From contig NZ_CP136521.1 in assembly GCF_032814565.1 (NCBI RefSeq), forward strand, positions 558,001 to 622,000: a stretch of DNA of 64,000 nt, in the 5' to 3' direction. Source of the stretch: Hwangdonia lutea (lineage in GTDB: Bacteria > Bacteroidota > Bacteroidia > Flavobacteriales > Flavobacteriaceae). The notes beneath the pieces were generated by a model. It did no database searches. It was not told where the DNA came from and saw nothing but the letters and a program-made list of their open reading frames with translations. Position numbers and translations under genes: made by a program. This document shows, piece by piece, positions 1,893 to 34,968 of this stretch; position 1 is the stretch's first letter; the number at the start of each line of letters is the position of its first letter.

Positions 1893-4800
1893 TGTTTTAC
1901 GATTTTTAAGTTTGATGGACCAGAAGCTGTTTCAATAGTTACCAAATAGGTGCCATTTTTAAAATGCCTCCCGTCTATAACAACAGTATTATAACGGACT
2001 GGTAAATACCTTGATTGAATAAGTTTCCCTGTGGTAGCATATAGTTTTACAGATACCATTTTCGAAATATTATCACCAATGTTAATTTGAAGATAATCGG
2101 TAAAAGGATTTGGGTAAGCTATGGCCTTTTCTGAAACTAAGATGGATTTCTCAAATACCCCTTGACATTCTTTATCTGTACCTATACGAAGCGTATTCAT
2201 TCCATTGGCAAGCTTTAAAGTAATTTGAGAATCTGAAGTGGTTGTAATGGTACCGTTTAAATTAATGGTATAGTTTGTTCCATTAGCTAAGTTTAGTGAA
2301 ACCGATTTTTTATCGGCACTTACCTTTGATAAAACGGCCAAATCTGATGGTTCTGTAATTACAATATCATAGCATCTTTTAAACTCAGTTTCCGGCACAT
2401 CTTTAACCGTTATACATACTTTGTATGTTCCAGACTGTAAATTGGTAAGCTCTAATGTATCGGTAAATTCAAAAGTATCGGTATTGCCATTTCCCGTTAG
2501 AGTTACTATATAATTATGGGCTTCTGCTGCTGTTAAGATAATTTTTCCGTTATCACTACTTCTGCAGGTTTCACCAATCGCTTGTATGGTAAAATTGTTA
2601 ACCGGCAATATAAATAGGCTACAACCTTGGGCATTTACGGCAGTTCCCAACGGGGTTTCCGGGCAAAGGTCGTCTATATCTAGAACACCATCATTGTCAT
2701 CGTCTTCATCACAAGCATCTCCTATACCGTCGTTATCAAAATCAGCCTGATCTGGGTTATCTACTCCAGGACAATTATCGCTTATACACCCCACTACCGT
2801 TAACTCCGCGACAGATGTCCACGCTGCATCATTAACCTCAGAGAGCGCTACTAATCTCATGTATCGTCCTTTTACAGGTGTAGCAAAGGTGATTTTTTGT
2901 CTTGCATTCGTATTTTCGAAAGTGCCGGAGTGGGCTACACTACCCCAATTATTCTTGTCATAGCTAAAATAAAGCTCATAATCTTTTATTCTTCCGTTTT
3001 GACCACTAGACCTTGGCGTATAAATAAATTCACTAATGTTATAAGAATTGCCTAAATCGATTTGAATTTCATGAGGATGCGCATCTGTTCCAGTACTCCA
3101 TCGTGTATGCCAAATGGTAGATGGATCACCATCAAAGGCCATAGTAGCCAAACCTGGATAATTAACCTCTTCGCTATCAGCATAGATTAAAGACCACTCG
3201 TTTTTTGGCAGTTCGGCAGGGTTATTACAATCTGTAATAGACGGACATGTTGTTGTGGTAACCATATTAGGAATTTCCTTTACATAATCTACGCCGTTTT
3301 GTGTTACGGTTAACTTTACCGTATAAGATCCTGGGTTACCCAGAATTACTTCCGGGTTTCTAATATTGGCATCACTTATATAAACTGGTGCAGGAGTTAT
3401 TTCCCATTTCCAACTGGCACCTGCGTGATTTAAAATAGAATGATCATCAAAATGCAAAACATCGTCCATACATTTATTTGATATGTTTTCTACCCATGGA
3501 TTTATAATAGGTATAAAGTTTTGTTCTTGTAATGGTGTTTCCCAAACACCACCTCCACCGGCTAGCCTAAGTTTGGCATCTCTATAAAAGGGAATAGCCG
3601 TATTAACTGCAAAATTTTCAGGATAATTATTTCCAAATAATTCCCAATCTGCCATAGATTCCTTTCTATAATAGCATTGAGATTTTTCACCATTTTTACT
3701 AGTTGTAAATAGGTATATTAAATCTTCGCCAGTATTTGATGGCTGTATTACCAAGTTTTTAGTATGGCTATTTACAGAACCAGACCAATTAGACCAGGTT
3801 TCTCCGCCATCTGTAGATTTAAAAACCTGTCCCTTATTTGCTGTCCAAGTTCCATTTGAATAGCAAGCGTACACCGTGTTTTCATCATAAAGTGAAGTAG
3901 CGATATTAGTTCTTCCCTTCATTTTATCGCCTCCATTAGCATTATTACTCAACGAAGGTTTATAGCTCCATGTAACTCCTTGGTCTTCGCTTTTATACAA
4001 CCCATAACCTTTAACATCGGCATATATTACATTTGGGTTGGACACACTCATTTGAACACACATAACTTCTCCATCAAATGTATGTAATGCTTCAAAGCTT
4101 TCGCCCATGTCGGTACTTTCCCAGAAGCTATTGCCTTCACCCAAAAACAATATCTCGAAATAATTAGGGTGGTGTATTAAATTTCCTCTACTACCACCGT
4201 ACTCCAACATGTTTGGATATTTAGAGAAACTAAATTTGCCTTCGTAAACAGATTCTGCGGTACTTGGTAATATCCAGCCACCACCCAAGTCATTAAAAGC
4301 GACATGCCTACTTTTACCATGAATAACCCAACCTGTTGGAGATTCTGCTCCCCCCATTCGAAGTGCTTTATTGTTGTAGAAATCTGCCATAGCGGTATTT
4401 CCGTTGTGATATCTACCACCAACAACAATATCTTCATTCCAGCCTTGATCAAATCCCCACATATCGGAACCTACCAAACCATTTATTCTAGGCTGAAAAT
4501 CGGTTTCAAATGCATCTGTAGAAAAACTAGTACCACCATCGGTAGCTAACCATACGGAGCCATCATCAAACCATTTCATGTCTTGAATGTCTGGGTGAAT
4601 TGAAAATCGACCAAAATAGCCGCCAATGGCATCAAAACTGTTACCGCCGTTGTTTGTTTTAAATAAGGTTGTGGTACCAACCATAAACTGATTTTCGTTG
4701 GTAGGTGATATTTCTAAAACTAAATCGTAATATCCTTGACCATTGTTGTATGGAAAAGCATTTGTATTACAATCAATAACCTTAGTCCATGACCAGTTTC

Positions 4801-5920
4801 CAGAACTATTGGTACCCTTATATAAATGCGGGGTATTATCTGCACTTAGCATGGTAGTTAATAATAAGTTTGGGTTTGCTTTAGTTACAGCAATTAACCC
4901 ACCACTTGAGTCTGAAATTGCAGGGAATCCTGAAACTACAGAAAAATTAGCGCCCCCATTTTGCGATTGTAAAATTTCAAAATTACCATTAGTCGCCGTG
5001 GTCATGGCGTATAGTATGTTGCTATTATTTGGGTTAAACTCAATATCGTAAGTTCGTCTTGTGGATTTTTGGATCCACGTACTTCCGGCGTCTGTAGACA
5101 TAAATATGCCTTTATCAGTAGAAACAAACATGTTATTTGAGTTGTTTGGGTCTATTAAAATGTGATTTGAAGAAAAATAAGTGCCGTTTTGCAATAAAGG
5201 AGTCCACGTATTTCCACCGTCAAATGTTTTATGCAATTGATTTCCTGCCGAAACATACACAACATTAGCATTTGCTGGATGAATGGTAACTGCTACTATA
5301 CCACCAGAAAACACATAGTTGGGAGTTAACAAGGTCCAGTTTAATCCGCCATCAACGGATTTATTCATATAACCTGTTTCGGTACCTGCATATAAAATAT
5401 TATGGTCTTCAGAAAAAACATCAAAAGCATAAACATTAACCTGCCAAGGCGCTACGGGTTTTGCTGTAGGACTATTATCTTCATTAAGCCAAAATGTATT
5501 TTTCGGGCCTAAGAAAGTCCAATTTGAGTTTGAAGGGTCTACAAATTTATTATTTTGTTTGTTTAATTTTGATAGTTTTGACCTATAGTTTTTAGATTCT
5601 AAATGGTGAATAAACCCTTTTTCATCGGCAAAATTTCCAACCACTCTTCTCCAAACTTTATAGTATCTTATAATGGCATTTTTTTGTTTACCATATTTTT
5701 TAAAATGCTGTTGATAGCCTTCTTCTATTTCATTAAAGTTGATAGGATATTGGTATAGTAATTTTGCCCAAGCTGGAAAATTTTCGTTATAGCTTGGTTT
5801 ATTAATAGGATTAACACCTGGTAATTCATCATACGGTGTTATGTTAATTTGGGCAAGCATACTTTGATGCATAAAAAAACACAAACCTATAGCTGATAAA
5901 ATTTGTAATAAATTTTTCAT
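1889..5920 (-). CDS. Large secreted multidomain BNR / PKD / F5-8 C / TSP3 protein with T9SS signal
   Basis: A 1343-residue exported protein. Residues 1-24 are a Sec signal peptide ending in LAQ. Residues about 130-800 hold many sortilin/VPS10-type BNR repeats (SxDGGxTW-like motifs such as [19 protein letters not shown] and [11 protein letters not shown]), which form large beta-propellers. A PKD-like domain follows (about 813-890), then a coagulation factor 5/8 type C carbohydrate-binding module (about 905-1040), acidic thrombospondin type 3 calcium repeats (about 1045-1085, [17 protein letters not shown]), and a type IX secretion sorting domain (about 1266-1343, starting [13 protein letters not shown]). 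It is probably released or attached at the cell surface by T9SS. BNR propellers of this type can be exo-acting glycosidases (for example xyloglucanases of GH74) or binding proteins; I see no proof of activity. A strong terminator separates it from the SusCD operon upstream. Confidence 0.85.
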
Positions 5921-6045
5921 TTAAGGAAGATTTATAAAAAGAAAGACTTTGTTGGTAACTGTTAAAAACAAATAACAGACCAAAGAAAAACACGTGCAAT
6001 GCTTAAGAAGCATGCATTTTAAGCGTAAAAAAATAGTTAAAATAT

Positions 6046-6074
6046 AACAAGAGGGTTAAAAGAACCCTCTTGTT
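6046..6074 (-). terminator. Perfect 12-bp hairpin terminator after the SusCD-lipoprotein operon
   Basis: AACAAGAGGGTT (6046-6057) and AACCCTCTTGTT (6063-6074) form a perfect 12-bp stem with a 5-base loop. Read on the minus strand it is followed by a T-rich tract within 25 bases. It lies 14 bp past the stop of the 618-residue lipoprotein gene, so it probably ends that operon and isolates the 1343-residue gene as a separate unit or attenuates read-through into it. Confidence 0.7.
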
Positions 6075-6087
6075 AATTTATAAAAAT

Positions 6088-7944
6088 TTAGTCTATTAAA
6101 CCAAAAACATTAAGTTCTGCTAAATATGTGAAATTATTGGGGCCTGATACAGCAACATATTTAACATATCTCGCTGAGACCACTCCATTGGCATGAGCGA
6201 TATACCCATTGTCTGTATCTAAACTTGCGCTTAGGGTTGCCACTTGAGTAAAGTTAACATTATCGCTACTAACCCAAAATTCATGTTCTGTTGCAGCTCC
6301 TGTTCTTCCGCTTCTTCTAAAAATCTCAAAACCACCAATACTTCGTTCTGATCCTAAATCAATAGTAACATGATGCGGGTAAGACGAACCGCTACCTGTC
6401 CATTGGGAATGCCAAAAAGTTCCCGTATCACCATCAATTAAGGCCGTAGCATATCCATTTACAGGGCCTTCGCCACCAGCTTCTTCTGTTGAAAAGTCTA
6501 CAATTGAGTAGTCTGCATAATCTAATAGTTCTATCACATTAATTTCGGCTAAATAGGTGAAATTGTTTGGCCCTGAAGCTGCAACATACTTAACATATCT
6601 AGCTGTAACAACATTAGCCGTATTGGCTGTAAAACCATTATCAGAATTTAAATCTGCGCTTAATGTAGCTACTTGTGTAAAGTTTACATTATCGTTACTT
6701 ACCCAAAATTCGTGTTCTGTAGCGGCACCTGTTCTTCCGCTTCTTCTAAAAATCTCAAAACCAGTAATTTGTTTCTCTGCGCCCATATCGAATGTAAAGT
6801 GATGTGGGTAAGACGAACCACTACCGGTCCATTTTGAATGCCAGAATGTAGATACATCACCATCTATAACTGCAGTGGCATAACCATTTACAGGGCCTTC
6901 ACCCCCAGCTTCTTCGGTTGAGAAATCAACAATGGTCCAGCTGCCTTTACCTGCCGCTGCCAACGGAGTAACTGAGAATGTCATGGATTGTGAATTTCCG
7001 TAAATATCTGAGACAGTAATTTCAATTTCCTGTTCTTCACTTGTCATCCCTGAAAACGTATAAGTTCCCATAGATTCTGACGACACCACCGTATTGCTTA
7101 CCTCATTACCTTGTTTATCGTTATTTTTAAATTCAAAAGTCATTAATGCATTTTCTGAATTTTCCCAGTTTGCGATAATTCCACCAGATATTGGCTCTAA
7201 AGTAAAGCTTGATAGGATTGCAGTAATGGTACCTGGAAACACATAGGTTTTCCAATCTGAATCAAATTCATCAATAGAAGTTTCATTACCATCCTCATCG
7301 GCGGCTGTAGGCACATAAAACGTACGGTACATAATAGGTGCTGAACGGTCGATTTGCTCTAAAACGCCTTCAGATTCCTCTTGTGGCACAGAAACAACAA
7401 CTTCCTCACCGCTTAAATTCGTGAATTTAATTTCGGTAGCCCTAGTAAGTTCACTACTTGGTTTTAAACTCACGGTGGCACTTCCATCACTATTGTATGT
7501 AAAAGAATTTACTCCTCTTGCCTCTAAATTAGATCGGTATGTTTCTCCGTAAACCGTACCGAATACAGTAACTTTAACAGATTCATTTCCATCGGCATCT
7601 TTTGAGTAAACATCAAATTCATAAGATTTCTCCTCCAATCCCGTAACTATTAGTTCAATTAAATCTGTATCGTTTTGAGACTTAGTATAGGGAAAAGTTT
7701 GACTGTTCTCGCCTTTATCCCAAAACACAGTGATTTCTTCAATAGTGAAACCCTTAGTTAAATATCCAGAAATTTTAATTCTGCCATCGCCAGCAAGTGT
7801 AGTTAAAGAATCTACCTTGGTTGCATAAATAATCTCACCATCTTGAATGTATTTTTCATGAAACTCATAAGTATCATTACAGGAATAGAATCCGAAAAAA
7901 AGCATTAAAGTTAATGGTAAAATATAATATTTTATTTTTTTCAT
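6088..7944 (-). CDS. Surface lipoprotein: DUF4998-like region plus two tandem F5/8 C modules
   Basis: A 618-residue lipoprotein with lipobox FGFYSC (Cys22). The segment after it, HEKYIQDGEIIYATKVDSL, matches the start of DUF4998-type PUL lipoproteins (about 23-235). An Ig-like stretch follows (about 236-330). The C-terminal half consists of two F5/8 type C (discoidin) modules, about 335-475 and 478-618, that are near copies of each other; the DNA repeats with a 429-bp period. Each module has the DGDxxTFWHSxWTGSG and FEIFRRSGR signatures. It is the last gene of the SusC-SusD-lipoprotein-lipoprotein unit, the usual place for a surface glycan-binding protein (SGBP). It probably binds the target glycan outside the cell. 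Confidence 0.85.
   Translation of the reverse strand: MKKIKYYILPLTLMLFFGFYSCNDTYEFHEKYIQDGEIIYATKVDSLTTLAGDGRIKISGYLTKGFTIEEITVFWDKGENSQTFPYTKSQNDTDLIELIVTGLEEKSYEFDVYSKDADGNESVKVTVFGTVYGETYRSNLEARGVNSFTYNSDGSATVSLKPSSELTRATEIKFTNLSGEEVVVSVPQEESEGVLEQIDRSAPIMYRTFYVPTAADEDGNETSIDEFDSDWKTYVFPGTITAILSSFTLEPISGGIIANWENSENALMTFEFKNNDKQGNEVSNTVVSSESMGTYTFSGMTSEEQEIEITVSDIYGNSQSMTFSVTPLAAAGKGSWTIVDFSTEEAGGEGPVNGYATAVIDGDVSTFWHSKWTGSGSSYPHHFTFDMGAEKQITGFEIFRRSGRTGAATEHEFWVSNDNVNFTQVATLSADLNSDNGFTANTANVVTARYVKYVAASGPNNFTYLAEINVIELLDYADYSIVDFSTEEAGGEGPVNGYATALIDGDTGTFWHSQWTGSGSSYPHHVTIDLGSERSIGGFEIFRRSGRTGAATEHEFWVSSDNVNFTQVATLSASLDTDNGYIAHANGVVSARYVKYVAVSGPNNFTYLAELNVFGLID
6100..6950 (-). repeat. Tandem duplication of an F5/8 C module, period about 429 bp
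   Basis: The coding DNA for the two C-terminal discoidin modules is nearly the same. For example, the stretch starting TGTTCTTCCGCTTCTTCTAA is at 6301 and again at 6730. Conservation extends to synonymous positions over long runs, which points to a recent duplication or continuing gene conversion. Confidence 0.85.
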
Positions 7945-27012: not shown

Positions 27013-27130
27013 TTTAGAGAAGAAATTAACTTTTTAGACAGCCTCTCTTTCTTTATAAAAACTCCAATTTTCAAACAAGTTTGATGACATTCTTTGTGCC
27101 ATTCGATGTAATCTTATAAAACATAGTATT

Positions 27131-28294
27131 ATGAGACCATTGAGCCTTTTTTTAGTTGCAATCCTTTCCTTTTCATCTTTATTTTCCTGTAATTTTACTA
27201 ATCCAAATAACGAGGTTGGTAACTTAAATCTTGATCATGGCTATAATTATCAAAATCAAGAAAAAAACACTACGTCATCTCAAAACGGATTAAAATACCA
27301 TAATATTTACGATGATGGAAACGGCATGGTAATATGTCGAATGCCATTACCAGAAAACTGGAAATACAACGCCGCAAAAAATGCTGAAATAACCATTACC
27401 GCGCCCAATAATATAAAGGTAAACAAAACCGAAACCTATAATTATGCCTATGCCAATGATGCATACTCGTTGCAAACGCTTCAAATGGCCAACAATCCTA
27501 ACGTTCAAGTTTCTCCCGTTTACACGCTTCAACAAATACTTCAGAACAATATTGTACCCTCGGCAAAATCGCAGGGCTATAAGCTTATCAAAAGCTATCA
27601 AATGCCGAGGGTTTTACAGTTTTGGAACCGGTTTGATTCTGGCATGCTAAAAACAGGCAGCAACAGACGCTACCATGTTTTAGGTACAGATTGGGCAGAC
27701 GCTAACGGCAACAGATCTTGCATTATTTTAGTACAATCTATAATAGCCAAAGGCAACTTTACAAGCTGGACTTTGCAATCTACCGAACTGGAAGCGCCAG
27801 AGCAGCATTTTGAAACAGCAAAGGAAGCCTATATTCTTTCTGTGGCCAACACACAAATAAACATGTCATGGCAACAATACAAAAACAAAGCGCTTTTACA
27901 AAGTATTAGACACAATGAAGCATATTGGGCAAATGCCACCAAACAGAGTCAAATAGCACACAACCAACGCATGCGTGCCATAAATTCTAGAGGAAATACC
28001 ACGCGGTCCGTTGGCAAAACGTATAGCGATATTTTAGATATTAATCATGCGGGGTTTTTAAAACGAAGTGACATGAATAGTGCCGGACAATCGAAAACCG
28101 TTAATATGATTGGTGAGCGTGCAACAATTTCAAACATGGCAACTGGCGAACGCTATAATGTTGAAGATGGCAGTAAATATTATTGGGTAAATACCAATGG
28201 CGAATATTTTGGGACAAACAATACGTTTTACGACCCAAGAACCGATAACAGAATAAACAACCAGGAATGGCATCAATTTGAAGTTGAAAATTAA
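27131..28294 (+). CDS. Uncharacterised lipoprotein
   Basis: I do not recognise this 387-residue protein. It has a type II signal peptide with lipobox SLFSC (Cys20). The mature part starts with an Asn/Gln-rich linker, then has a segment NGMVICRMPLPENWKYNAA (about 62-80) and a mixed alpha/beta region. Around residues 250-290 is a Gln/Asn/Arg-rich predicted helix. The C-terminus has short beta-like elements with ERATISNMATGERYNVEDGS and YYWVNTNGEYFGT. There are no catalytic motifs. It is the first of three consecutive lipoprotein genes before the sigma factor operon; the 61-bp gap to the next suggests possible co-transcription. Function unknown. Confidence 0.75.
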   Translation: MRPLSLFLVAILSFSSLFSCNFTNPNNEVGNLNLDHGYNYQNQEKNTTSSQNGLKYHNIYDDGNGMVICRMPLPENWKYNAAKNAEITITAPNNIKVNKTETYNYAYANDAYSLQTLQMANNPNVQVSPVYTLQQILQNNIVPSAKSQGYKLIKSYQMPRVLQFWNRFDSGMLKTGSNRRYHVLGTDWADANGNRSCIILVQSIIAKGNFTSWTLQSTELEAPEQHFETAKEAYILSVANTQINMSWQQYKNKALLQSIRHNEAYWANATKQSQIAHNQRMRAINSRGNTTRSVGKTYSDILDINHAGFLKRSDMNSAGQSKTVNMIGERATISNMATGERYNVEDGSKYYWVNTNGEYFGTNNTFYDPRTDNRINNQEWHQFEVEN

Positions 28295-28355
28295 TATATG
28301 ATGACATTTTAGTTTTACTACGATGTATTAAAAATAAACCTAAAAACAGTATCAA

Positions 28356-29147
28356 ATGAAATCAATAAAACTATACGGTATTTTATTTATTATTTTAAAC
28401 GTGCTATCATGCAGCTCAGATAATAATGGCGATAACAACCAAAACAATCTAGCAAACTATACCCCTAGAATAAATTGCACGAGCAATACCGTTATAGGGC
28501 CAATCGCTGCTTATTGGGATTATGGCAACAGTGTACCGCCACCATTAGCACAAGTGCCCATTTTAGCCAACCCCGGAACACAGTTTATACACAGTCAACA
28601 TCCGTATTTGGGACTAACCATTCCGCAAGGTTATACCGCTTTGGAAGACACGGACCAGTTTACCGCTCCATTAGGCGTTAACATTATTAGAAACGGAAAC
28701 AACGCCGCACTTTGGCGGTATGTACCACTATCTACTTATCCGCTTAATTTTACAGTAGATGACATTATTGCCCGCGAAATAAACGATAAAATGTTTGCCT
28801 TTTACGGGGCCAACGGTAATAATTTTGAGGTATTGTGCGAAAACAAACCGCCTCTAATTAGCGAAAACGGCATTACCAGGGTATTTAGCTCCCGTTTGAT
28901 TCGCTTTGGTAATTTTACGGGACTCGTTTGGGTTAATGTTACGGCAGTTCAAGGATTGCCTACGCTTTCGGTGGCTTCATCAGTTTCAGCGGGTCCAACC
29001 AATGAATTCGACAACTTGGTGATGGATGTGTTTTTACCACTAAGCTTTCAATTGTTAGTTAGCGATAGAACCACACTTTCCGATAGAGATAACGATGGCA
29101 CTCCAGATATTTTTGACAGAGAGCCCGATAATCCTGATGTTCAATAA
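28356..29147 (+). CDS. Uncharacterised lipoprotein with C-terminal calcium-type DxDxDG repeat
   Basis: A 263-residue lipoprotein, lipobox NVLSC (Cys19) followed by SSDNNGDNN, an acidic surface-export-like start. The middle is beta-rich without a recognised family. The final 25 residues hold DRDNDGTPDIFDREPDNPD, a thrombospondin type 3-like or dockerin-like Ca-binding loop at the very C-terminus. It is followed by the propeller lipoprotein gene after 20 bp, so the two probably share a transcript and may work together at the cell surface. Function unknown. Confidence 0.75.
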   Translation: MKSIKLYGILFIILNVLSCSSDNNGDNNQNNLANYTPRINCTSNTVIGPIAAYWDYGNSVPPPLAQVPILANPGTQFIHSQHPYLGLTIPQGYTALEDTDQFTAPLGVNIIRNGNNAALWRYVPLSTYPLNFTVDDIIAREINDKMFAFYGANGNNFEVLCENKPPLISENGITRVFSSRLIRFGNFTGLVWVNVTAVQGLPTLSVASSVSAGPTNEFDNLVMDVFLPLSFQLLVSDRTTLSDRDNDGTPDIFDREPDNPDVQ

Positions 29148-29167: not shown

Positions 29168-30244
29168 ATGAAACATACGTTAATCAAACAAACAACCGCT
29201 CTATTTTTAATGGTAATTTTCAACATTACTTTTTTTGCCTGTAGTAAAGACGATGCCAATACCAAACAAGAAGAAAATCCCGGGACACAAGTATTCGTTG
29301 CAGGCATAAACCCAGTAAGTTCCCAATTAACCATTCCAGAATTATGGGAAAACAATGTGGCCAAAAACCTAACCAGCTCCAACCAATCGGGCATTGCCTA
29401 TTCTGTTTTTGCATCCGGAAACGATGTCTTTACGGCAGGGTTGGAATACAACGGCAGCGTAAACATTGCCAAATTATGGAAAAACGGTGCGGCCACAAAC
29501 CTAACCGACGGCACAAAAAACTCTGGGGCATATTCCGTTTTTGTTTCCGGCAACGACCAATATGTTGCTGGTTTCGAGGAAGGCGCCATTGGGCTTAACG
29601 CCAAGATCTGGAAAAACGGTGTGGTTACCGACCTATCCAACGGCATCCAATCCAGTGCCAATGCGGTTTTTGTTTCAGGTAACGATGTATATGTGGCAGG
29701 TTGGCAAGTTCCTGCAAATACGGCCGGTGGGCAGTTTATTGCCGTACTATGGAAAAACGGTGTAGTCACAAGCCTAACCGATGGTACCAAATATGCTGGG
29801 GCAACCTCTGTTTTTGTTTCGGGCAGCGACGTATACGTTGGCGGTTTTGAATACAATGACAACCAAAGCAAAACATTGGTGGCCAAGATATGGAAAAACG
29901 GCACTGCCATAGATTTGACCGATGGCTCGAAAAACGCTTTAGTGGAATCTGTTTTTGTCGATGGTAACAACGTATATGCGGCCGGCATGCAAAATACCGG
30001 CAACCAATTTGAAGATGCCGCGACAATATGGAAAAACGGTGTTGCTACCAAACTTACCGATGGCACCAAATATGCCAGGGCAAATTCCATATTCGTTTCC
30101 GGTAGCGATGTGTACGTAGCCGGAGTTGAAAGCAATGGCACTAACAATATCGCCAAAGTGTGGAAAAACGGTACGGCCACAAGCTTGAGCAGCAACAACG
30201 GATACGGTGTCGCACATTCGGTGTTTATAAAAATTCCAAATTAA
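29168..30244 (+). CDS. Lipoprotein with seven internal repeats, predicted seven-bladed beta-propeller
   Basis: A 358-residue lipoprotein, lipobox TFFAC (Cys25) followed by SKDDA. After a short linker the whole mature protein is seven repeats of 43-48 residues with the form VYVAGxExNG-x-IAKIWKNGxxTxLTDGTKxAxAxSVFVSGxD. Each repeat has one IWKNG and one SVFVSG strand pair. Seven four-stranded repeats are what a closed beta-propeller needs. The DNA also repeats, which creates long open frames on the opposite strand that I do not regard as genes. It lacks enzyme motifs and is likely a binding or sensing surface protein. The ECF sigma operon starts 147 bp downstream. Confidence 0.85.
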   Translation: MKHTLIKQTTALFLMVIFNITFFACSKDDANTKQEENPGTQVFVAGINPVSSQLTIPELWENNVAKNLTSSNQSGIAYSVFASGNDVFTAGLEYNGSVNIAKLWKNGAATNLTDGTKNSGAYSVFVSGNDQYVAGFEEGAIGLNAKIWKNGVVTDLSNGIQSSANAVFVSGNDVYVAGWQVPANTAGGQFIAVLWKNGVVTSLTDGTKYAGATSVFVSGSDVYVGGFEYNDNQSKTLVAKIWKNGTAIDLTDGSKNALVESVFVDGNNVYAAGMQNTGNQFEDAATIWKNGVATKLTDGTKYARANSIFVSGSDVYVAGVESNGTNNIAKVWKNGTATSLSSNNGYGVAHSVFIKIPN

Positions 30245-30391
30245 AAAATTATGGACCAAAGCATATTTTTGTAATAAATATTTTGAAAAAAATGACTTAA
30301 AAAGTTGATAAACGAATTCTTATGGCATTGAACGATGTAGTATTTGTATTATTTTAAAATAGTTGTATATTTCTTGTGAATTGCTGCAACT

Positions 30392-30964
30392 ATGGGACAA
30401 GCCTACAGACTTGAACATCAAATACAACTTCTCGATGCTATTAAAAGTAATAATTCTATTGCTTTAAAAGGATTATATATTGCAAATTATCCTAAGGTTG
30501 AAGCCTTAGTATTAAAGAACAGTGGCACTGTGGCACATGCTAAAGATATTTATCAAGAAGCCTTTATAACCGTTTGGCAACATGTGAAAAACGATAAGTT
30601 CGTACCACAAAACGATACCGCTTTACAAGGTTATTTATACAGAATTGCAAAAAATAAATGGATTGATGTTTTAAGATCCAAAGCTTTTAAAAACTCAAAA
30701 TTATTAAATATTGAAGCCTTGAAAGTTATTAAAAATGATGATATCGAAAATGATGACTTTGAAGATAAAAAGTTAAAAATAACCATGGATGCCTTTAAAA
30801 ATTTAGGCGAACCCTGTAAATCGCTTTTACGTCAATTTTATTTTGATAAAAAATCAATGCAAGACATTGCAAACGAATTAAAGCTAGATCCCGCATCGAC
30901 AAGAAATAAAAAATACCGATGTGTAAAAAAACTACGCGAGTTGGCTTTAAAAATTAATATATAG
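30392..30964 (+). CDS. ECF-type RNA polymerase sigma factor
   Basis: A 190-residue sigma-70 family protein. Region 2 covers about 25-95 (HAKDIYQEAFITVWQHV, then LQGYLYRIAKNKWIDVLR) and region 4 about 130-185 (LLRQFYFDKKSMQDIANELK, then STRNKKYRCVKKLREL, the helix-turn-helix). This is the usual ECF size and layout, with no region 3. It is followed after 2 bp by a membrane protein gene with the anti-sigma layout, so the sigma factor is probably held inactive by that partner. Its target promoters are unknown; the neighbouring TPR-CHAT gene is in the same operon. Confidence 0.93.
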   Translation: MGQAYRLEHQIQLLDAIKSNNSIALKGLYIANYPKVEALVLKNSGTVAHAKDIYQEAFITVWQHVKNDKFVPQNDTALQGYLYRIAKNKWIDVLRSKAFKNSKLLNIEALKVIKNDDIENDDFEDKKLKITMDAFKNLGEPCKSLLRQFYFDKKSMQDIANELKLDPASTRNKKYRCVKKLRELALKINI

Positions 30965-30966
30965 TA

Positions 30967-31716
30967 ATGAACCCAAATATTAACATATCCCAAAAACTAC
31001 TAGAGACCGTTGAGCAATATCTCAACAAAACTTTGGATGCCGACAAACTTAAAGCATTCGAAGACAGACTTAAAAATGATTTGGAATTTAAAACCCAAGT
31101 AGAAGACATAAAAACAATGCTACTTGGTATTGAAGCACAGAGCTTAAAGGAAACCTTAGACGATTTTCATAAAGAAACCAAAACGGCTCCACATAATATT
31201 ACAAAACGTAAAACGGCAACTAACAAATCTTTATGGAACTTCGGAAAATTCGCTGCGGCAGCTGCTATCATTATTGCCGTGGGCAGCATTTGGTTTTTTA
31301 GCCACTCGCCCAACCAAAACCTTTATGCCAAATATTTTAAACCCGATCCGGGTTTGCCAACAACCATGAGCAGTACAGATAACTATGATTTTTACGATGC
31401 CATGGTAAACTATAAACGTGGCGACTATGCATTGGCTATTGATAAATGGCAAACGCTTTTAACTCAAAAACCTGAAAACGACACGCTAAATTATTTTATA
31501 GGTGTGGCTCATTTGGCCAATAAAAATGAAACCGAAGCCATTCCTTTTCTAGAGCGCTCGGTATTATCAGAAGATGCATTTCCATTAATAAGCGACGCAT
31601 ACCACTATTTAGGATTGGCTTATTTAAAAGACGGCAATTTAACATTGGCTAAAAAAAATTTCGAACTCAGTCAATCTGAAGCCAGTAAACAAATTATTAT
31701 AGAACTGAACGATTAA
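30967..31716 (+). CDS. Membrane TPR protein, likely anti-sigma-type partner of the ECF factor
   Basis: A 249-residue protein with a cytoplasmic N-terminus (about 1-85) of helical character (KLLETVEQYLNKTLDADKLKAFEDRLKND), one membrane helix (about 91-110, AAAAAIIIAVGSIWFFS), and a periplasmic C-terminus with TPR-like helix pairs (about 135-245, NYKRGDYALAIDKWQTLL; DAYHYLGLAYLKDGNLTLAK). The N-terminal segment resembles the short sigma-binding helices of Bacteroidota anti-sigma factors but lacks the Zn motif of ZAS domains. Position immediately after the sigma gene (2 bp) supports the role. The periplasmic TPRs would be available to bind the downstream TPR-CHAT protein; that is inference. Confidence 0.8.
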   Translation: MNPNINISQKLLETVEQYLNKTLDADKLKAFEDRLKNDLEFKTQVEDIKTMLLGIEAQSLKETLDDFHKETKTAPHNITKRKTATNKSLWNFGKFAAAAAIIIAVGSIWFFSHSPNQNLYAKYFKPDPGLPTTMSSTDNYDFYDAMVNYKRGDYALAIDKWQTLLTQKPENDTLNYFIGVAHLANKNETEAIPFLERSVLSEDAFPLISDAYHYLGLAYLKDGNLTLAKKNFELSQSEASKQIIIELND

Positions 31717-31728
31717 ACTATTAATCAG

Positions 31729-34700
31729 ATGATTAGGTTATTAACATACTACAAATATGTCTTTTTTATTAGCCTTTTCATGTGTACCACAACATTACAA
31801 GCGCAGAATAAGTCGGTTTTTAATACTCAATATATCGATCAATTAATTGAAAATGATTCTTTGGAAAAAGCAGAAAATGAACTACACATTCAAACCCAAT
31901 ATTATACCAACAACAAACAATACGATTCACTTTCAAACCTTGTATATTATCACGGAAGAATAGCGTTATTAAAAGGTGACAACGATTTTTTTCATAAAAG
32001 CAAAACGGCCCTCGAAAAATTAAAATCCCTAACCAATAACCCTGACGATATATATAACGCTTACGCGGACATGTCTACCTTAACGGTTGATAACGGCATG
32101 TATCAAGAATCATATGATTTTAACAAACTAGGTTTCGAACAGGCCGAAAAATCATCTACCGATCGTTTAAATAAAATGGCGAAAAGAGCTTACGGACTCT
32201 CAAGCACATCGTATTTTATGAGGAAATTCGATTTGGTAAAAAAACACGGACTTGAAGCGTTTAAAATCAATCAAAGCAATCCTAAAGCCACGGCCACCAA
32301 TGTATATAGCGCCTGCAATATTGTAGGTTTGATGATGCAAAACGAAAATAAATTAGACAGTGCTTTATATTACTACAACAAAGGTTTTGATGCTTTAAAA
32401 AACACCAAGGGCAGCCTTAACGAGCGCTATTATTACCCCGCTGTATTAGCTGGAAATATGGCCATTATTTATATGAATCAAGGGAAATTTAGCAAGTCTT
32501 TAAAAATTCAAGAAAATGCCATTCGCAATTATAAAATTTACATAGATTCATCGGCAAAAAGCTCAAACATGAGCAATGTTAAGTACAACTACCTAGCTAT
32601 AATTAACGACATGGGTAGCAATTATGTAAAGCTCGGACAAGTTGAACGCGCCCTTAATTTATTTGAGTATAATTACAAAAAAGCCAAAGCATATTTTCCT
32701 GATAACAGCATTCAACAAATCATTTTTATCAATCAGTTTGCCCAAGGAAAATGGGTGGCCCACGATGGCGAAGAAGCTTTAAGGCTTATTAACGAATCTT
32801 ATAAAAAGTTTAAAAACATTTCTGAAGATTATGCGGGTTACATGACTTATGCCATGGGGACAAAAGCCAATATTTTAGAAAACATGGACAGTATTGCAGC
32901 CGCTTACGATGCTTATCAGTTAAGCGATGCCTTATTTGAAACCGTTAGTCCTGGAAGTTATAGCCACGACCGGCTTACAAAACTTCGGGAATCGGCATTA
33001 TTTTATTCCAGAAACGGCTATGAAAAAGAGGCCAACATAGCCACAAATAAGGTGTTGGAAGTTGTAAATAAAACAGCTACTCAAGAAGATTTGGAAACCA
33101 TAAAGGCCAATAATTTGATGGCCGAAGTTCAATTTAATCTCAAAAACTACAACGCTGCTATTTCATGGTCTGAAAAATCCTTAGCGCTTTTAGAAAAAAA
33201 CAAGGCCCTAAAAAGCACCGATTCCGCGTACTGGCAAACCCTTAAGGCAATGCCCTTGTTATACAAAAGCAAAGCTACTTACAAACGTATAGATACCACC
33301 AATGTTAAAGCTGTTTCAGATATTTACAACACGCTTAAAAACTCCATTGATATTTTAAATACATCATCATCAAAATATATTTCGAACGTTGATAAAAGTG
33401 AGCATTTATCAAAAATGAAACCTGTTCTAAACTTCACCATGCAAATCAGTCTTAAACTTTATGAAATGACTAAAGATAGCCTGTATTTAGAACAGCTCAT
33501 TTCCATGCACGAATCAACACTATACAGTCGCATCCGGTCAAAATTATCAATCAGGGAAAACATTCAATTTAAAGATGTGCCCCAAGATATTCTTGAAAAA
33601 GAAAACACCTTAAAAAACACTTTAAAACGGCTAAGAAACGATATTAATCTGGACGAAAATTCCATCCAACAGTTTATTAATACCAATAATGAATGGCTTA
33701 TTTTTTTAGACGATTTAAAAAAGAAGTACCCAAAATATTATAATATGCGGTACAAAACCATAAAACAATCGTTGGGCAACATTCAAAATAACATCCCGAA
33801 AAACACCACTGTTATCAGATATCTTTACATAAACAGCAACCTATATGCGTTTATTGCCACGGAAAAATCTACGGCGCTTTATAAATTAAATTCGGAAAAT
33901 TTAGAAGCACAAATTCAATTGGCGTCAAATAATATTACAGAAAAAGATTCTTCAAAAAAAGCATTACATCAACTTTACAAACAGCTTTGGGAACCGTTTG
34001 AAACTAAAATTACAACTAAAAATATTATTATTATTCCTGATGGCGCTTTATTTAATTTAAGTTTTGAATGCTTAACCTTCAAGGAAATTAACTCCTTTAA
34101 AGAATTGGAAACTAATAGTTTACTTTCAAAATACAGTATTTCTTACAATTACAGCTTATTACTGGTAGACAATAAAAAAACGGTTGATTATCAAAACGAT
34201 TTTATAGCTTTCGCCCCAGAATTTAACGATAAAATGAAGACGGATTACAAGATAGCTATTACCGATTCTATCGCCATTGATAAAACCTATTTAAAATTAA
34301 TTCCGCAGCCTTTTAGTGTCGATTTAGCCAAAGAATTTTCGCAGCTTTTTAACGGTACATCTTTTATTAATGAAAAAGCTTCAAAACAAATTTTTAAAAA
34401 CGAAGCCAACGAACACAAAATCATCCATATTGGCACGCATGCCGAATCTAATAATATTACTCCGGAATTGTCGCGTTTGATTTTTGCAAAAAATGATGAT
34501 AACGAAGACAACTCGCTTTACACCTACGAGATTTATAACGAAAATTTAAATTCCAATCTAGCCATTCTAACAGCTTGCGAAACGGGAAAACCAACCTTTC
34601 AAGCCGGAGAAGGCATGATATCGTTAGCACATGCTTTTAATTATGCCGGTAGCGAGAGTATTTTAACCAGTCTGTGGAAAATTGATGAGCAGTCGAGTGC

Positions 34701-34968
34701 CAAAATTATTGAACTGTTTTACAATAATATAAAAAACGGGCTTCCAAAGGATAAAGCGTTGCAACAGGCTAAATTGGATTATATAGCCCAAGCCGAAGGC
34801 CGAACCGTAACACCGCAGTATTGGGCGGGGTTAGTGCTTATTGGCGATGTGTCTCCTATAGCTTTGCAGACAGATTCCAACACTATATTTTATTGGCTTT
34901 TTGCTATGCTGGGGCTTGTATTATTAATTGTATTAGTCCGCAAATTGAAAACAAAAAATAAGAATTAG
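31729..34968 (+). CDS. Exported, membrane-anchored TPR-CHAT protease-like protein
   Basis: A 1079-residue protein. Residues 1-26 are a signal peptide ending in QAQ; about 30-480 carry TPR-type helix pairs; about 540-680 are helical; about 685-1045 are a CHAT (caspase HetF associated with TPRs) domain; 1051-1072 is a membrane helix (FYWLFAMLGLVLLIVLVRKL). The putative caspase-like dyad is intact: His904 in IIHIGTHAESN and Cys950 in AILTACETGKPTFQAGEGM. With a cleaved signal and a C-terminal anchor the CHAT domain should face the periplasm. It is third in the sigma/anti-sigma operon (12-bp gap). It may be a protease acting on a surface or membrane partner, or a signal-transducing receptor; no substrate can be named. 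Confidence 0.88.
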   Translation: MIRLLTYYKYVFFISLFMCTTTLQAQNKSVFNTQYIDQLIENDSLEKAENELHIQTQYYTNNKQYDSLSNLVYYHGRIALLKGDNDFFHKSKTALEKLKSLTNNPDDIYNAYADMSTLTVDNGMYQESYDFNKLGFEQAEKSSTDRLNKMAKRAYGLSSTSYFMRKFDLVKKHGLEAFKINQSNPKATATNVYSACNIVGLMMQNENKLDSALYYYNKGFDALKNTKGSLNERYYYPAVLAGNMAIIYMNQGKFSKSLKIQENAIRNYKIYIDSSAKSSNMSNVKYNYLAIINDMGSNYVKLGQVERALNLFEYNYKKAKAYFPDNSIQQIIFINQFAQGKWVAHDGEEALRLINESYKKFKNISEDYAGYMTYAMGTKANILENMDSIAAAYDAYQLSDALFETVSPGSYSHDRLTKLRESALFYSRNGYEKEANIATNKVLEVVNKTATQEDLETIKANNLMAEVQFNLKNYNAAISWSEKSLALLEKNKALKSTDSAYWQTLKAMPLLYKSKATYKRIDTTNVKAVSDIYNTLKNSIDILNTSSSKYISNVDKSEHLSKMKPVLNFTMQISLKLYEMTKDSLYLEQLISMHESTLYSRIRSKLSIRENIQFKDVPQDILEKENTLKNTLKRLRNDINLDENSIQQFINTNNEWLIFLDDLKKKYPKYYNMRYKTIKQSLGNIQNNIPKNTTVIRYLYINSNLYAFIATEKSTALYKLNSENLEAQIQLASNNITEKDSSKKALHQLYKQLWEPFETKITTKNIIIIPDGALFNLSFECLTFKEINSFKELETNSLLSKYSISYNYSLLLVDNKKTVDYQNDFIAFAPEFNDKMKTDYKIAITDSIAIDKTYLKLIPQPFSVDLAKEFSQLFNGTSFINEKASKQIFKNEANEHKIIHIGTHAESNNITPELSRLIFAKNDDNEDNSLYTYEIYNENLNSNLAILTACETGKPTFQAGEGMISLAHAFNYAGSESILTSLWKIDEQSSAKIIELFYNNIKNGLPKDKALQQAKLDYIAQAEGRTVTPQYWAGLVLIGDVSPIALQTDSNTIFYWLFAMLGLVLLIVLVRKLKTKNKN

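Follow-up and report, generated by a model that had tools for sequence, protein, structure and literature searches.

The window analyzed here is a 64,000-nucleotide stretch of the genome of Hwangdonia lutea, a member of the Flavobacteriaceae (contig NZ_CP136521.1, positions 558,001 to 622,000), and all positions below refer to it unless another contig or locus is named. It carries a three-gene operon in which the gene for an extracytoplasmic function (ECF) sigma factor is followed after 2 bp by that of a membrane tetratricopeptide repeat (TPR) protein, and after a further 12 bp by that of an exported TPR-CHAT protein, a caspase-like enzyme. This arrangement had been proposed in the first-pass annotation of the DNA, and the open reading frames (ORFs), their lengths and their spacing were exactly as described there. 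The sigma factor (30392..30964, +; 190 aa) matched Pfam Sigma70_r2 (PF04542; 1.7e-12, 47.4 bits against a cut-off of 24) and TIGR02937, sigma70-ECF (68.8 bits against a cut-off of 42.9). The TPR protein (30967..31716, +; 249 aa), presumed to be an anti-sigma factor, comprised an N-terminal domain (N-domain, aa 1–75), a transmembrane segment (TM) at about aa 93–113 and TPRs at aa 140–249 (Pfam TPR_16, 3.7e-10); its AlphaFold2 (AF2) model had a pLDDT of 87.6 and a helical N-domain. The gene lies directly after that of the sigma factor, and the single TM and the cytoplasmic N-terminus indicated by charge fit the layout of a membrane anti-sigma factor.

The third protein (31729..34968, +; 1079 aa) consisted of a signal peptide (aa 1–25), a long TPR region (about aa 33–660), a CHAT domain (aa 744–1040; PF12770, 1.2e-41, 143.5 bits against a curated cut-off of 24) and a C-terminal TM (about aa 1052–1070). 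The catalytic residues H904 (in HIGTH; codon 34438..34440, +) and C950 (in TACET; codon 34576..34578, +), which had been noted earlier as intact, were both present, and the His-Cys dyad was invariant across 131 aligned CHATs with the exception of one gapped row, as selection for proteolysis would predict. A whole-protein search of the PDB with the CHAT alignment was swamped by TPRs.

Conservation and predicted topology of the trio

In 60 relatives the CHAT gene adjoined the sigma/TPR pair, running in the same direction, converging on it, diverging from it or lying a short distance away. The association holds through repeated changes of gene order in the Flavobacteriaceae. A sample of 80 loci from named genomes contained the trio 67 times; the remaining 13 were mostly Aequorivita loci with lone CHATs. 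One Aequorivita-type genome (G027) had a lone CHAT of the M-type, defined below, with the sigma/TPR pair on another contig. The first-pass annotation had suggested a survey of co-occurrence, and across 298 genomes of the family the TPR protein was found in 102, the CHAT in 134 and both in 99 (Fisher p = 2e-44, a value inflated by shared ancestry). When an M-type search was added, 101 of the 105 genomes with the TPR protein also had a CHAT. The trio occurred in other families of the class as well. The host genome contained three CHAT genes in total, of which the second (C1:1176660) had its own sigma/TPR pair in convergent order. The trio is a conserved module and not a local coincidence, since it was conserved across the family and a second, rearranged trio was present in the same genome.

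Topology was predicted from hydropathy and charge. The host CHAT protein had a signal peptide, a single C-terminal TM and no internal TM. Among 107 CHATs, 102 had a signal-peptide-like N-terminus, 103 had a C-terminal TM followed by a positively charged tail, and none had an internal TM; the type III-E Craspase, by comparison, is characterized by a TPR-CHAT protein without export signals. The TPR protein had a single TM, with positive charge on its N-terminal side in nearly all homologues. The CHAT domain is thus strongly predicted to lie on the periplasmic side together with the TPRs of the membrane protein, the N-terminus of the latter being cytoplasmic, and the periplasmic, C-terminally anchored CHAT that had been put forward for this locus appears to extend to some 100 homologues. 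A cytoplasmic CHAT was rejected on the grounds of the predicted signal peptide and C-terminal anchor. A defence-system reading was likewise rejected, as the three proteins had no PADLOC match; no cas-like gene was seen by eye among the neighboring ORFs, although no dedicated CRISPR scan was run.

Several other arrangements of CHAT genes were encountered. The third host CHAT (1792 aa; in locus L050, C1:2890022-2904855) was of another kind and had no sigma/TPR company; three conserved genes lay downstream, without a sigma gene, and the locus was syntenic across two genera (L050, L049). Tandem duplicate CHAT genes followed one sigma/TPR pair in L053, L054, L087 and L104. In a further subtype (L042, L047, L048), a protein of about 650 aa and a lipoprotein were encoded between the CHAT and a divergent sigma/TPR pair. 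A gene for a small aspartyl protease, retropepsin-like and with the motif ILDTGA, adjoined an 860 aa CHAT subtype in L042 (6457-6900, −) and L048 (7884-8330, +), and was also found near a sigma/TPR pair in L239 (3517-3969, −). CHATs with a signal peptide but no anchor and no sigma/TPR neighbors occurred in L028 (475-3762, +) and L032 (2431-5238, −), the former facing a second CHAT (3767-5827, −).

A candidate cleavage site in the TPR protein

The lowest-entropy 9-mers of the TPR protein were not in the TPRs but just outside the membrane, at (P)DPGLPTTM(S) (0.43 bits, 51 sequences). The stretch DPGLPTTMS (aa 127–135; 31345..31371, +) lies about 20 residues outside the TM, in a coil that, in the AF2 model, follows a short juxtamembrane helix and leads into the first TPR, and is the predicted CHAT recognition and cleavage site, with M134 (codon 31366-31368, +) as the predicted P1 residue. 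In an alignment of 139 sequences, the column of M134 (column 270) held Met in 81 of 81 M-type proteins, a count that is partly by construction because the M-type was defined by a pattern containing that Met. What does not depend on this definition is the Arg found at that position in nearly all of the other proteins (55 of 58), the three exceptions being alignment-shifted or divergent. The next residue was Ser or Gly after M134 (51 of 51), and Gly, Ser, Asp or Asn after the Arg. A small residue after a near-binary Met/Arg position would be more typical of a P1-P1′ pair than of a docking surface.

A natural experiment was provided by four genomes in which an M-type TPR protein had no M-type CHAT to go with it: G155 and G198 had no CHAT of any kind, and G036 and G072 had only the other CHAT type. 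Their TPR proteins were intact, with 173 of 224 conserved positions retained outside the site, whereas within it only 13 of 36 conserved residues were left and M134 was lost in all four. Four controls retained 8–9 of the 9 site residues; the M-type CHAT was in the locus in G158 and G251 and elsewhere in the genome in G027, where the TPR protein kept DPGLPTTM, while the type of the CHAT near the gene in G015 was not resolved. A genome with another CHAT type only (G144) was intermediate, with 6 of 9 site residues and the Met retained. Per-protein Fisher values ranged from 0.0037 to 0.09, so that the case for decay rests on consistency across the four genomes; as G155 and G198 have common synteny and possibly reflect one loss, two to three independent events are likely. 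The N-domain of three orphans that lacked the sigma factor seemed relaxed (25 of 42), which would fit a role in sigma binding, albeit with small numbers. The first-pass annotation had proposed that the CHAT protein cuts or binds the TPR protein; the P1-like Met/Arg column and the decay of the site support the idea of a cut, with cleavage itself as a prediction. A locus decaying in the other direction was seen in L245 (G176 C4), in which a truncated M-type CHAT remnant of 214 aa lay near the promoter motif described below, without a TPR protein.

The identity of the site residue was mirrored in the CHAT domain. Wherever the position aligned, CHATs with an M-type partner had Glu at residue 987 throughout, and those with an R-type partner had Asp; the Glu group extended to eight CHATs of distant families whose partners carry DPGLxxxM. 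Residue 987 is taken as a lead toward specificity, and as a candidate S1-pocket position only. Clade-wide differences near the active site, at residues 948, 954 and 955, were not used as evidence, as the distant M-type CHATs do not all retain them.

Upstream lipoproteins and a putative promoter

Upstream of the operon, a putative sigma-dependent promoter, TGATGACATT-N12-CGATG, occurred as an exact motif at 27082..27108 (+), 5′ of the gene for lipoprotein A (27131..28294, +; 387 aa). This protein matched no Pfam family and was the fourth conserved member, with homologues in 41 loci. A second exact copy (28299..28325, +) preceded lipoprotein B (28356..29147, +; 263 aa), a probable regulon member with homologues in 20 loci; these also stood behind distal motif copies in other genomes. 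A less conserved repeat lipoprotein (29168..30244, +; 358 aa; 7 loci) began 20 bp after lipoprotein B. Directly before the sigma gene lay a different conserved element, GTATTTG...TTGTATATTTC (30340..30373, +), common to about 20 upstream regions and distinct from the TGATGACATT motif, which is possibly a basal promoter.

The motif or a close variant was found 5′ of lipoprotein A in about 35 of 38 loci. The two exact copies before lipoproteins A and B were the only ones in the window (0.28 by chance, even allowing two mismatches), and the whole host genome contained only four, plus one with a single mismatch. The five host sites preceded lipoprotein A, lipoprotein B, an outer-membrane barrel-like protein, an exported subtilisin-like protease (616 aa) and a second lipoprotein of the lipoprotein A family. 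Next to the barrel-like target (C1:1980500-1987500, L214), two adjacent genes that diverge from it (4800-6574, +) had starts that looked TIR-like by eye (KIFTSYAHEDEGLKDEM...). Exact copies were present in 29 of the 41 M-type genomes among the 299 searched, and in 4 of the remaining 258 (1.6e-26); a reversed control pattern occurred once. All 20 distal copies sampled from other genomes had an ORF start no more than about 50 bp downstream, and in 19 cases the product of that ORF was judged exported by its signal peptide or lipobox, with starts chosen by script. This co-distribution indicates that the motif is the putative promoter class of the sigma factor of the M-type module, with exported proteins as targets. 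In several loci the motif stood directly 5′ of the sigma gene, suggesting autoregulation. Lipoprotein A was mostly encoded just upstream of the sigma gene but also adjoined lone Aequorivita CHATs, and may be a mere target or a ligand of the CHAT protein. The trio named in the first-pass account stood, but that account did not mention the conserved lipoproteins encoded upstream, the promoter with its regulon, or the precedent of Csx29 and Csx30 discussed below.

Proposed mechanism, alternatives and related systems

The preferred reading, to which a probability of about 0.7 is given, is that the CHAT protein serves as site-1 protease for an ECF sigma factor in an envelope-signaling module and cuts the TPR anti-sigma factor. 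The N-domain of the TPR protein would hold the sigma factor against the cytoplasmic side of the inner membrane, while the exported CHAT, tethered by its one C-terminal anchor, is strongly predicted to face the periplasm. An envelope signal, perhaps sensed by the long TPR superhelix of the CHAT protein, which the first-pass annotation had suggested as the sensor, or received through lipoprotein A, would activate the caspase-like site. The enzyme is predicted from the comparative data to cut the exposed loop that links the membrane segment to the TPRs, directly after M134. The membrane stub would then be finished by a general site-2 protease of the M50 family, of which the host genome had one homologue (PF02163, 4e-52), and by cytoplasmic proteases, following the RseA/RseP paradigm. 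Comparative genomics suggests that the freed sigma factor would transcribe the genes of lipoproteins A and B, among other exported proteins, from the TGATGACATT-N12-CGATG promoters.

Both proteins have periplasmic TPRs, and a TPR-TPR contact might instead change the anti-sigma factor without a cut, the conserved loop being a docking peptide. Decay of the loop in genomes without the CHAT fits docking as well as cutting, but the conservation of the catalytic His and Cys throughout, and a near-binary single position followed by a small residue, are more in keeping with P1-P1′ and make binding alone improbable. The presence of the CHAT gene in the same operon could also mean that the sigma/anti-sigma pair controls its expression, the CHAT having its task elsewhere, in surface processing or cell death, with the TPR protein as its chaperone or inhibitor. 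The regulon does include another exported protease, the subtilisin-like protein, and activation of death effectors is reported for CHATs in other systems (PMC9729208). This explanation seems quite improbable, as the conserved motif copies precede lipoproteins or the sigma gene and not specifically the CHAT gene, the site persists in convergent and divergent loci where the CHAT is outside the sigma operon, and its decay accompanies CHAT loss. It is very improbable that the loop is cut by another site-1 protease, DegS- or signal-peptidase-like, with the CHAT as an accessory. Such cutting of anti-sigma factors by other enzymes is known, with signal peptidase acting on RsiP according to PMC8844934, yet the decay tracks loss of the M-type CHAT and not of housekeeping proteases, and the identity of the site residue tracks the CHAT clade.

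Other points weigh against the CHAT as site-1 protease. Cleavage, binding and topology are all predictions from sequence comparison. Pfam did not recognize the N-domain of the TPR protein as an anti-sigma domain, and of ten members compared with NCBIfam, two gave weak anti-sigma hits, the better at 0.0037. When the AF2 model of the TPR protein was used for structure searches, the matches listed were to TPRs and included no anti-sigma fold. The CHAT domain of the AF2 model was unusable (catalytic domain pLDDT <50). Because the M-type CHATs form one clade (support 1.0), the match at residue 987 is a single evolutionary event, and residue 987 was rejected as the Arg-binding Asp of separase: in the Csx29 alignment that position (separase D2151, TPR-CHAT K670) maps to residue 991, where the two classes are not distinguished. 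Outside the family, a sigma/TPR pair with no CHAT within about 7 kb occurred in several genomes.

In the DegS/RseP-RseA-RpoE system, a periplasmic site-1 cut of a single-pass anti-sigma factor is followed by site-2 and cytoplasmic proteolysis, releasing an ECF sigma factor for envelope genes (see also the discussion in PMC10028731). The pathway proposed here would share this site-1/site-2 order, but DegS is a PDZ serine protease, whereas the present candidate is a clan CD cysteine protease with a TPR superhelix. The combination of a TPR-CHAT protease, an ECF sigma factor and a protease-cut sigma inhibitor recalls the Csx29-Csx30-CASP-sigma system (Craspase; PMC10028731, PMC9729208), and the CHAT domain was detectably similar to Csx29 (5e-6). 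In type III-E CRISPR, Csx29 cleaves Csx30 upon RNA recognition and so frees an ECF sigma factor; cleavage is lost when M427 at the cut is deleted from Csx30 (PMC10028731). Csx29 works in a CRISPR RNA-guided complex switched on by target RNA, in contrast to the signal peptide, membrane anchor, membrane-spanning TPR anti-sigma factor and envelope regulon of the present module. CalpL-CalpT-CalpS of type III CRISPR is likewise a tripartite protease/anti-sigma/ECF sigma switch, but with a Lon-type protease triggered by cA4 (PMC11417357). Separase also joins a helical-repeat domain to a CHAT-related caspase-like domain and cuts after Arg (PMC9729208), but it is eukaryotic, acts on cohesin and is controlled by securin. 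As an exported and membrane-bound system, the module would work like the CRISPR switches of Csx29 and CalpL without being a member of that system. A broader proposal, that CHATs of this caspase/separase type are a separate and widespread class of periplasmic site-1 proteases for ECF sigma factors of Bacteroidota, with a switchable P1 (Met or Arg) and with CRISPR Csx29-Csx30-sigma as offshoot or sister of what would be the older envelope module, is speculative and rather unlikely.

No description of the envelope trio was found in a literature search that was mainly open-access, so that an earlier mention is possible in the main ECF classification paper, which was outside it. The module yields three testable predictions, namely the cut site at M134, catalysis by C950, and one promoter with a short target list. 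If the preferred reading is true, the module would contain the first caspase-family enzyme, as far as we know or could find, to serve as site-1 protease for a membrane anti-sigma factor. A switch built of TPR-CHAT, anti-sigma and sigma proteins would then also exist apart from CRISPR immunity, in the ordinary envelope biology of abundant marine bacteria, and many marine Bacteroidota appear to use a caspase-like envelope enzyme to free a switch for surface-protein genes.

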